In this document: positions 1,222 through 5,226 of the stretch, piece by piece
Position numbering within the stretch: the first letter of the stretch is position 1
Layout of the letters: every line of letters starts with the position of its first letter
From: Nitrospinota bacterium
Lineage (GTDB): Bacteria > Tectomicrobia > Entotheonellia > J063
NCBI GenBank assembly: GCA_003696125.1
Contig: RFHZ01000057.1
Span: forward strand, 1-5,381
DNA: 5,381 nucleotides
Direction: 5' to 3'
Program-made: the position numbers and the translations under genes
Notes under the pieces: generated by a model
Databases searched by the model: none
What the model was told of the DNA's origin: nothing
Seen by the model: the letters and a program-made list of their open reading frames with translations, nothing else

Positions 1222-2064
1222 TCAGACAAGCCGGAACTCTTCTCCTGCGCGTACTACCCTCCCCTCCTCCTCCAGCTTGAGCAGGTGGGAGAGGATGGAG
1301 CGCTCGGCGATGCGATAGAGGGAAGGAGAAAGATCGGTATAAATGCGTCTGACAATGCTGGAAACGGTGGTTGCTCCCTGGGTCAGGGCTGCCAGTACCT
1401 GGGCTTCGCGCATCTGGCGATGGGCGATATAGGCGCGGATCTTCTCCTGGGGACGGGTGATGACCGGACCATGCGCCGGGTAGATAGAGGCGATATCGAG
1501 CTGGAGTAAGCGCTCAAGGGAGTGCAGGTAGGCAGAAAGTCCCCCCCCTTCCGGGGAGATCACCACGGTACCTGTTCCTGCGATCAGGTCCCCGGAAAAG
1601 AGGAGTCGTTCTTCGGGAAGATAGTAGCAGAGGTGATCACGGGCATGGCCAGGGGTATACATGACCTGCAGGGTAAAGCCGTCCCCCTGGATCCGATCCC
1701 CCTCCTGGAGAGGGGAAAAGGGGGAGCGAAAGTGCTCGGCTCTTCCGGTGAGCGGCATCTTGTAGATGGTTACCTGGGGGAAATGCTGTCGCAGGAGGTC
1801 GCAGCTCCCCACATGGTCGGGATGCCCATGGGTGAGGAGGATGGCGCGGAGCGGTCCCAAAGCGTACCGTTGTAAACAGGCCTGGAGGGCGGCCAGATAA
1901 GAGGGGTTTCCTGCTCCGGTATCGATCAAGACCGGAGAGCGTTCTCCCAAGAGATAGGTGTTCGTCCCTGCTCCGGTCATGGGAGAGGGGTTATGTCCCG
2001 GTACCAGATAGAGTCCTTTGCGCAGTTCTACCGCTGCTCGGTTTTGATCGGTCCCCTGTTCCAT
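1222..2064 (-). CDS. MBL-fold metallo-hydrolase with LACTB2-like winged-helix tail
   Basis: A 280-residue metallo-beta-lactamase-fold hydrolase. The ligand set looks complete for a two-zinc site: T-H79-G-H81-P-D83-H84, H140 in TPGH, D159 in FSGD and H198 in YPAHG. The N-terminal signature NPSPMTGAGTNTYLLG (about 25-40) and the C-terminal winged-helix domain (about 210-280, with ILSHLLKLEEEGRVVR) are typical of the LACTB2 / glyoxalase-II-like branch. Human LACTB2 is an endoribonuclease; many bacterial members are annotated only as MBL-fold hydrolases, so the substrate is unknown. The start at 2064 is preferred to upstream in-frame codons because GGGAGGAG (2067-2074) lies just before it and a longer start would overlap nth. 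It begins 13 bp after the nth stop and is probably cotranscribed with it. Predicted cytoplasmic; no signal peptide is visible. Confidence 0.9.
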   Translation of the reverse strand: MEQGTDQNRAAVELRKGLYLVPGHNPSPMTGAGTNTYLLGERSPVLIDTGAGNPSYLAALQACLQRYALGPLRAILLTHGHPDHVGSCDLLRQHFPQVTIYKMPLTGRAEHFRSPFSPLQEGDRIQGDGFTLQVMYTPGHARDHLCYYLPEERLLFSGDLIAGTGTVVISPEGGGLSAYLHSLERLLQLDIASIYPAHGPVITRPQEKIRAYIAHRQMREAQVLAALTQGATTVSSIVRRIYTDLSPSLYRIAERSILSHLLKLEEEGRVVRAGEEFRLV

Positions 2065-2857: not shown

Positions 2858-3703
2858 ATGCAGAAGCTCGTTATCCTCGGTTCAGCGCAGGATGGGGGGG
2901 TCCCCCATATCGGGTGTGCCTGTTCGCATTGCCAGCAGGCCCGACACGACCCTGCTGCCGTGCGGATGGCTCCCTCTCTTGGTATCATCGACCTGGAGGC
3001 AGACAAGGCGTTTGTCATCGATGCCTCTCCCCACCTGCCCGACCAGCTCTACCGGTTGCGGAGCAGGCGGGGAAGGGAGGAGAGCCCTTTTCTCCCTGAT
3101 GCCATCTTTCTCACCCACGCCCATATCGGTCACTATCTGGGACTGGCCTATCTGGGCAAGGAGGGCTGGAACACGCAGGCCCTTCCCCTCTATTGCACGG
3201 CAGAGATGGAGAGCTTCCTGCGCCACAATAAACCCTTCCGCTACCTGCTGGAACAGGGGAATGTCTGCTGTCATCGTTTGCTTCCTCACCAGCGTCACCC
3301 CCTCACCCCTGCCCTCTCCCTGCTGCCGGTAGAAGTCCCGCATCGGAACGAGGATGCCAATACCCTCGCCTATGTCATCCAGGGACGGACCCTCTCTGTC
3401 CTCTACATGCCCGATCTCGATTATTACACCGAGGCGGTACTGGCCCTCATCCGGGAGGTGGATATCGCCATCATCGATGGTACCTTCTTCTCTGGCAGCG
3501 AGCTTCCGGCCATGCGTATGGCCGGGGTCCCCCATCCCCCGGTTGTGGAAAGCCTGGCCAGGCTGGAGGGGATACAGACCCGCATCATCTTCACCCATCT
3601 CAACCATACCAACCCGCTGCTCGACCCGGCTCACCCGGCCTGGCAGCGGGTGAGCGCAGCAGGGTTTGCGGTGGCAAAAGAGGGAGAGGAGATCGAGATT
3701 TAA
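2858..3703 (+). CDS. PqqB-like MBL-fold protein with atypical THAHIGH motif
   Basis: A 281-residue member of the PqqB-like branch of the metallo-beta-lactamase fold. Supporting motifs: an N-terminal LGSAQDGGVPHIGCACSHC with the CxCxxC cysteines C20, C22 and C25 (a structural zinc site in PqqB), DGTFF (208-212), and a C-terminal FTHLNHTNPLLD (246-257) closely resembling the PqqB ending. The usual HxHxDH reads H87-A-H89-I-G91-H92, with Gly in place of the zinc-2 Asp. Other candidate metal residues are H162 and D186. No pqqA, pqqC, pqqD or pqqE is in the window, so a role in PQQ synthesis is not supported; the substrate is unknown. The ATG at 2858 has AGGAG (2843-2847) 10 nt upstream and is preferred to an in-frame GTG at 2831, which sits only ~2 nt after the predicted transcript start. 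Transcribed alone, it converges on the selenoprotein gene. Confidence 0.85.
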   Translation: MQKLVILGSAQDGGVPHIGCACSHCQQARHDPAAVRMAPSLGIIDLEADKAFVIDASPHLPDQLYRLRSRRGREESPFLPDAIFLTHAHIGHYLGLAYLGKEGWNTQALPLYCTAEMESFLRHNKPFRYLLEQGNVCCHRLLPHQRHPLTPALSLLPVEVPHRNEDANTLAYVIQGRTLSVLYMPDLDYYTEAVLALIREVDIAIIDGTFFSGSELPAMRMAGVPHPPVVESLARLEGIQTRIIFTHLNHTNPLLDPAHPAWQRVSAAGFAVAKEGEEIEI

Positions 3704-4491
3704 TACTGTTCCCGCCGCCAGCGGTAGGGGAGATCGATGATCCCCGGTTCTGTCATCGTCTCCAGGTGACGAAACGCTTCCTCCAGGATACGGCGTTGCT
3801 GCCTTACGGCAAAAGGCTCCCCCAGCGGATGTCCAAAGGGCCAGCGCAGGAACAGGGCCCGGGGAGGGTTTACGGCCTCTGTGAGTTCCCGTTGAATGCT
3901 GATGGCGATGGTCGCCATCCCCTCCGCTTCGATCACCCGTTGTATCAGTCCCACCGACCGATTACAGAGGGCTCAGGCCGGGGTGAGGAGCACCACATCC
4001 ACCTTTTGCTCTTTAAGTTTGGTGGCAACCTCAGGAGCGGTCTCGTACAGGAGCACGGGGAGATGGTGCTTGTCGATGTGTCCCATGAAGCTGTAGTGGA
4101 CCGGGGCCAGCCTGCCGATACGTCCTTCGGCCTGAAACTCCTGGAGACGTTGCAGGGGAAAGACGATATTCAGGTCCTTATCCGCATCGCTGTGGTCGTA
4201 GTAGTCGTGGGTGATGGTTAATTCTTCCAGGGGCCAGTCGCCGGGGATCTCCCGGTAGCTCGGGTCTCCATCCGGATCGGTCATGTCAAAGGGCTGGTCG
4301 TCCCGGCGATGGACGCCGGCTGTGGTGACCAGAGCCACGGTGCATGTGGAGAGCGGTTTGGGCAGGGGAGTCCAGGGGGGAGGACCGAGTTTGGTGAAGG
4401 TGTGCCCTCGTAACCAGAGGGTGGTGAGCCAGCGAAAACGGGTAAAGAGTTTGGCCAGCAGTCGATGTTTCCGGCGTTGCCAGTTTCCCAT
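3700..4491 (-). CDS. Selenoprotein, glycine/sarcosine/betaine reductase selenoprotein B family (UGA-recoded)
   Basis: A 263-residue protein if the in-frame TGA at 3973-3975 is read as selenocysteine. Homology-like continuity runs straight through it: VDVVLLTPA, then Sec173-A-L-C176-NRSVGLIQRVIEAEG, forming a UxxC redox motif. Other family-typical blocks are ALVTTAGVH (53-61), FDMTDPDGDPSYREIP (68-83), LTITHDYYDHSDADKDLNIVFPLQRL (91-116), FMGH (135-138), PRALFLRWPFGHPLGEP and the C-terminal LPYRWRR. It is far shorter than true GrdB (over 400 residues) and no grdE partner is visible, so it is probably not part of glycine reductase; a thiol/selenol redox role is inferred. No signal peptide is seen; the N terminus is Arg/Lys/Trp rich. 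The ATG at 4491 has AAGGAG at 4503-4508, 11 nt upstream. It lies 27 bp after the glycosyltransferase stop, probably in one transcript. Its TAA overlaps the PqqB-like TAA in TTAA. Confidence 0.9.
3936..3971 (-). promoter_or_regulatory. Candidate bacterial SECIS element
   Basis: In the mRNA, starting two nucleotides after the UGA, a hairpin can form. CCC (3971-3969) pairs with GGG (3938-3936). Above it is a 2x2 mismatch, then three pairs, one bulged A, and a 7-bp upper stem closed by C-G. The 5-nt apical loop GGUGG (3955-3951) lies about 18-22 nt past the UGA. A short stem-loop directly after the UGA, with G and U in the apical loop, is the known arrangement for SelB-bound SECIS elements in bacteria. 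The fold was found by hand and its energy was not computed. Confidence 0.7.
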
Positions 4492-4518
4492 GTCTATCTC
4501 TTCTCCTTCTCTTCTCGT

Positions 4519-5226
4519 TCAGCGTACATCCCGGTATACCTTCCAGAGCAGGTGAGGGGAAAGGCCAAGAAAATAGAGTAACCGCAGGCACCACATCAGC
4601 AGGATGGTCCGCACAACCCCCTGTTTACGCCAGCGGCGGGCCGAGGTGGTGACCTTACTGCGCAGGCAGGCGATTTCTCCGGCGCGTTTCATCCGTTTAC
4701 TCAACTCGATGTCTTCGAAGAGGGGGAGTTCAGGATACCCCCCCAGCTGGAAAAAACACCGGCGCCGGATGAAGATGGCCTGATCTCCGGTGGCGATATG
4801 TGTCCAGCGGGAGCGGAGGTTCATCAGAAAAGCGACCAGATGCAAGAGGCCTTCCTGGACCCACTCCTTCAGGGTGTGCGGGTCTATAGGGTCGAACCGC
4901 ACATCGAATCGTCCCCCGATCACCTGGGGATGAGAGAGGGCCTGCTCGATTTCCCGGTGAAAGTGGGGAGGGAGGAGCGTATCGGCATGCAGAAAGAGGA
5001 GCACATCGCCGTGAGCTGCTCTGGCTCCGGCATTCATCTGGCTGGCCCGGCCTCGTGGTGCCGACAGGACCCGGGATCCCCTTTGCCGGGCAATGGCTAG
5101 GGTCTGGTCCGTGCTCCCTCCATCCACAACGATGACTTCGGCAGCGGGGGAGTGGGAGAGGGTCTTCAGCGTCGTTTCCAGGCTCGTTTCCTCATTGAGC
5201 GTGGGGATGATGATGGAGAGCTGCAT
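4519..5226 (-). CDS. Family 2 glycosyltransferase, TIGR04283 type (rSAM/selenodomain-associated)
   Basis: A 235-residue GT-A fold glycosyltransferase. It opens with MQLSIIIPTLNEE, has the nucleotide-sugar motif VVDGGSTD (33-40), APRGRASQMNAGA (57-69), the metal-binding HAD at 80-82 in place of DxD, TGDQAIFIRR (146-155) and the acceptor-side FEDIELSKRMKR (170-181). The tail TSARRWRKQGVVRTILL leads into a hydrophobic stretch (about 207-222) that may touch the membrane. This whole pattern fits the TIGR04283 family, described as rSAM/selenodomain-associated transferase 2 and also labelled an arsenosugar biosynthesis glycosyltransferase; the sugar and acceptor here are unknown. The ATG at 5226 is chosen because the family begins directly with this beta strand; an in-frame start at 5295 would add 23 atypical residues. 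The ribosome site is weak (GGGGGA at 5238-5243). First visible gene of the leftward unit containing the selenoprotein. Confidence 0.92.
   Translation of the reverse strand: MQLSIIIPTLNEETSLETTLKTLSHSPAAEVIVVDGGSTDQTLAIARQRGSRVLSAPRGRASQMNAGARAAHGDVLLFLHADTLLPPHFHREIEQALSHPQVIGGRFDVRFDPIDPHTLKEWVQEGLLHLVAFLMNLRSRWTHIATGDQAIFIRRRCFFQLGGYPELPLFEDIELSKRMKRAGEIACLRSKVTTSARRWRKQGVVRTILLMWCLRLLYFLGLSPHLLWKVYRDVR

Follow-up and report, generated by a model that had tools for sequence, protein, structure and literature searches.

The minus-strand gene at positions 3700–4491 of the window, the whole 5,381-nt stretch analysed here, is confirmed by sequence comparison as a single selenoprotein gene in which UGA 173 would be read as selenocysteine (Sec), yielding a predicted full-length, reductase-like protein of 263 residues. 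We propose with high confidence a combined reading of the locus: one selenoprotein gene, decoded by SelB and tRNA-Sec by way of a hairpin, encoding a PrdB-like product that is likely a thiol-dependent reductase working without PrdA on a substrate that is probably not D-proline. The gene is a further member of the PrdB selenoprotein family catalogued since 2005, and the result serves chiefly to correct the annotation: gene callers that do not handle Sec cut this gene and many of its relatives at codon 173, hiding both the Sec and the C-terminal third. Coordinates of the features are collected in Table 1.

Table 1. Features of the selenoprotein locus (positions in the window)
Feature	Position	Strand	Basis and remarks
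PrdB-like selenoprotein CDS	3700..4491	minus	263 aa, Sec codon 173 (TGA), stop TAA; TIGR04483 186 bits, residues 31-260
In-frame TGA, U173	3973..3975	minus ('tca' on + strand)	Aligned codon TGA in 78/80 named homologues and in true PrdB (Terrisporobacter, Enterococcus, others)
Cys176 codon TGT	3964..3966	minus	Translation; at least 90% conserved in 36-sequence alignment
Bacterial SECIS core, CGGUC-GGUGG-GACUG	3946..3960	minus	Five pairs, 5-nt loop after 17-nt spacer from UGA; loop G 3954 invariant
Extended SECIS stem-loop, predicted (lower stem with internal loop)	3935..3972	minus	Fold of UGA + 39 nt, -17.3 kcal/mol; covariation evidence covers the core only
AAGGAG, probable ribosome-binding site	4503..4508	minus	Sequence reading; 11 nt 5' of ATG
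TIGR04283 'arsenosugar biosynthesis' glycosyltransferase	4519..5226	minus	271 bits against a cut-off of 182; ordinary TGA stop

The reading frame opens at ATG 4491-4489, meets TGA at 3975-3973 and terminates at TAA 3702-3700, with 172 codons 5' of the TGA, 90 sense codons 3' of it and no disruption other than the TGA. Standard gene calling ends the ORF at the TGA after 172 residues, the truncation that a preliminary description of this DNA had foreseen for automatic annotation. Its coordinates for the TGA and for the 90 further sense codons prove exact, and the UxxC motif it named is confirmed in the translation as U173-A-L-C176, with Cys176 the probable resolving Cys. The 172-residue 5' part matches positions 10-145 of the PrdB profile TIGR04483 (E 1e-36), and the 90-residue 3' part, searched alone, matches positions 151-236 (E 8e-11); the two halves match adjoining stretches of one profile in order, bearing out the claim that the C-terminal half comes from the same family. 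All 36 family members tested match TIGR04483. The AlphaFold model for all 263 residues (35 homologues; mean pLDDT 93.7, pTM 0.92) packs both halves into one confident domain, with residue 173 positioned between a strand (166-170) and a helix (174-189). Foldseek returned no structural match under E 0.001 for this model, the best VIA-align match (Z 8.9) was to unrelated α/β proteins, and sequence profiles matched designed proteins only; none of these searches retrieved a solved structure for the fold.

A first search covering 98 genomes identified relatives in 16, most of them with one in-frame TGA at the Sec site, and scanning the GTDB species genomes yielded 80 named loci. The aligned codon at these loci is TGA in 78, TCA in two and a Cys codon in none. 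The homologues range across Nitrospinota, Poribacteria, Chloroflexota, Methylomirabilota, Acidobacteriota, Thermodesulfobacteriota, Rubrobacter, Halanaerobiales and others, and the 3' half keeps both its frame and its profile match from phylum to phylum. A PrdB-like paralogue on another contig of the same genome bin (C960) also contains an in-frame TGA, and Cys occupies the Sec column in a distant relative (L037). The expectation that homologues would have Cys or Sec at residue 173 thus holds for Sec; among close homologues the alternative is occasionally Ser and hardly ever Cys. A third PrdB-like gene of the bin, on contig C905 (L056:2273-3031, plus strand), has Ser (TCA) at the Sec column and no hairpin. 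TCA, one base from TGA, also stands at this column in two Desulfobacterales (L068 and L069); L069 retains five pairable positions, and the L068 genome has tRNA-Sec(UCA).

The hairpin 3' of the UGA shows compensatory variation. Across 18 distinct sequences the five pairs are formed in 100% of cells, with changes on both sides in four of the five, and the pairing signal is lost when the partners are slid by 1-3 columns. A set of 94 distinct sequences shows 93-100% pairing at each of the five pairs and an invariant G (94/94) as the second base of the loop. The most telling hairpin signal is covariation at a synonymous Gly codon position, whose third base is a purine in 74/75 sequences with Ser (T) opposite and in 0/10 with Thr or Ala (pyrimidine in 10/10). 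Comparing the Gly third base with the first base of the S/T/A codon gives a Fisher P of 3.5e-12, a value that treats sequences as independent, which the related Poribacteria are not; at other Gly codons of these genes, all four third bases occur. Because this single synonymous position covaries with a neighbouring codon, the family makes a good test set for SECIS elements.

Published bacterial SECIS criteria specify a loop of 3-9 nt, a stem of at least 4 bp, a G in the first two loop positions, a distance of 16-37 nt from the UGA and an energy of at most -7.5 (PMC13188914). The hairpin, with its 5-bp core, 5-nt GGUGG loop, 17-nt spacer and folding energy of -10.6 to -17.3 kcal/mol (UGA + 33-42 nt), falls within these ranges. 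Folding of 60 nt downstream gives a minimum-energy structure other than the hairpin, and no Rfam family scores above threshold in the window. Taken alone, the hairpin of this gene is weak evidence because the five pairs would survive in ~4% of random synonymous recodings; its strength lies in the covariation.

The source genome bin (4.18 Mb, 990 contigs, 94.8% complete, 8% contamination) contains the machinery for selenocysteine incorporation. selB scores 386 bits, above its curated cut-off; selA is split over two contigs at contig ends; selD (136 bits), likewise split at contig ends, has an in-frame TGA of its own; and a tRNA-Sec with anticodon UCA represents selC. All four genes for which the preliminary description had proposed a search, three of them (selB, selC, selD) as a refuting condition if absent, are thus found, although in a fragmented bin with 8% contamination they might conceivably come from a different organism. 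At least three other genes of the bin carry an in-frame TGA, namely SelD, GrdA and the C960 paralogue. Contigs C138 (L055 3570-4202), C930 (L054 2-517) and C950 (L150 1323-1940) hold fragments of GrdB (N-terminal) and GrdE (C-terminal) at contig ends together with the TGA-containing GrdA gene, which makes a glycine/sarcosine-reductase-type complex probable in the bin as well.

These data make selenocysteine at UGA 173 a very well supported reading at the sequence level, against which three others were weighed. A sequencing or assembly error hiding a sense codon (Cys, Ser or Trp) could be argued from the single metagenome assembly and from the Ser (TCA) of some relatives, but is excluded because TGA stands at the identical column in 78/80 independent homologous assemblies. 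The annotated PrdB genes, the paralogue of the same genome and the retained hairpin agree, leaving such an error, which the preliminary description had named as a possible refutation, a negligible probability. Hardly more credible is a pseudogene, or a locus with two products, in which a true stop at 172 residues precedes a degenerate 3' remnant. Standard calling does end the ORF there, but the 3' half is conserved across phyla, the structural model joins the halves in one domain, and the frame is otherwise intact. A genome-wide reassignment of UGA to an ordinary amino acid (code 4- or 25-like) would account for the several further in-frame-TGA genes of the bin, yet in these genes (SelD, GrdA, PrdB-like) the TGA falls at established Sec sites, and tRNA-Sec and SelB are present. 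The code is judged not to be reassigned because TGA terminates three neighbouring genes of the window (1222-1224, 2078-2080 and 4519-4521) at family-consistent lengths, and reassignment is as improbable as a sequencing error.

The selenocysteine-containing product is a predicted single-domain PrdB-like selenoprotein, not GrdB. It scores 185.9 bits against TIGR04483, short of the equivalog cut-off of 300 bits, and 39.9 bits against PF07355 (GRDB superfamily; gathering score 22), where the match covers profile positions 221-345 and residues 45-170 only. The GrdB-like (PF07355) assignment of the preliminary description therefore stands for the superfamily, with its gathering score passed, but the nearest model is PrdB (186 vs 40 bits). 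The GrdB models TIGR01917 and TIGR01918 match in their C-terminal part only, with 44 vs 602 and 50 vs 65 bits, below their cut-offs. GrdB, GrdF and GrdH, the selenoprotein B of glycine, sarcosine and betaine reductases (PF07355, TIGR01917/18), have a homologous C-terminal half and the same Sec column, and the GrdB-type motif UGTC occurs in L038 and L039. The GrdB models span ~431 positions, whose N-terminal part is missing in the product, and its matches of 40-50 bits lie far below the equivalog cut-offs.

Annotated PrdB proteins from Terrisporobacter, Enterococcus, Ligilactobacillus and Peptoclostridium are ~39-41% identical to the product over residues 51-258 and share the single domain of ~240 residues and the UxxC motif; in all four records inspected, their Sec aligns with U173. 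The motif itself differs (UGTC in PrdB, UALC here), the gene lacks prdA, prdC and prdD neighbours, and clostridial and enterococcal PrdB genes have no such hairpin at the same offset. A profile search found no PrdA in the bin, an absence that is probable but not certain at 94.8% completeness and 990 contigs, and the same model found PrdA in 4/4 control PrdB records. No PrdA or GrdE relative was found next to the fetched homologue loci. We file the product as PrdB-like, and not as D-proline reductase, because it scores below the equivalog cut-off and PrdA was found neither in the bin nor near the homologues. That it is nevertheless a true D-proline reductase subunit PrdB, as its best profile match, its identity and its shared Sec column might suggest, is improbable in view of the bit score and of PrdA, detected in every control record but not here.

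For the PrdB-like protein, the proposed mechanism begins with tRNA-Sec and SelB, which would decode UGA 173 under the direction of the hairpin starting 12 nt after the UGA. The U173-A-L-C176 motif would then lie at the N-terminus of a helix following a central strand, and the product, by analogy with GrdB and PrdB, most likely serves as the selenol half of a thiol-dependent reductase. The most likely redox pair is Sec with C176, a chemistry drawn from family and motif, in which Sec would attack or accept a substrate group and C176 would resolve it. The product seems not to need the PrdA pyruvoyl subunit, so D-proline is unlikely to be its substrate. More broadly, we lean slightly towards a widespread, PrdA-free subfamily of single-domain PrdB-like proteins whose substrate is not D-proline and whose partners vary by lineage, two Gfo/Idh/MocA oxidoreductases in Poribacteria being one example, and in which some copies exchange Sec for Ser through the one-base difference between TGA and TCA. 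Our literature search found no paper on PrdA-free PrdB-like proteins.

Sec-containing 'proline reductase PrdB' genes with a UxxC motif were reported from the Sargasso Sea (42 genes; PMC1088965) and from the GOS data (235 genes; PMC2398784), and the PrdB selenoprotein is listed in a 2026 review (PMC13188914). These marine-metagenome proteins very probably belong to the same family as the present gene, the two being set together by Pfam family (PF07355) and motif as published, with the Sec form commoner than the Cys form. Both metagenome papers call all members proline reductase, and the text of the GOS paper is without mention of PrdA (PMC2398784). The name may mislead for environmental PrdB selenoproteins since PrdA is apparently missing here.

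The TIGR04283 gene lies upstream of the selenoprotein gene in the same direction, 27 nt from its start. Its family first went by the name rSAM/selenodomain-associated. A tblastn search of ~100 homologue loci for a conserved link between TIGR04283 and PrdB-like genes gave only L116, at a distance of 3 kb, and a weak match in L140, and the adjacency is treated as chance. A link to ychF was also rejected, this gene adjoining a PrdB-like gene in three loci only, one of them from a Rubrobacter. Convergent with the selenoprotein gene, 2867-3703 (plus strand) encodes an MBL-fold, PqqB-related protein that, at 131 bits against a cut-off of 245, is not a true PqqB by the model. In most Poribacteria loci (L080, L081, L082 and L097 among them), Gfo/Idh/MocA oxidoreductase genes flank the PrdB-like Sec gene on both sides and on the same strand, an arrangement that suggests a sugar- or polyol-related operon in this lineage.
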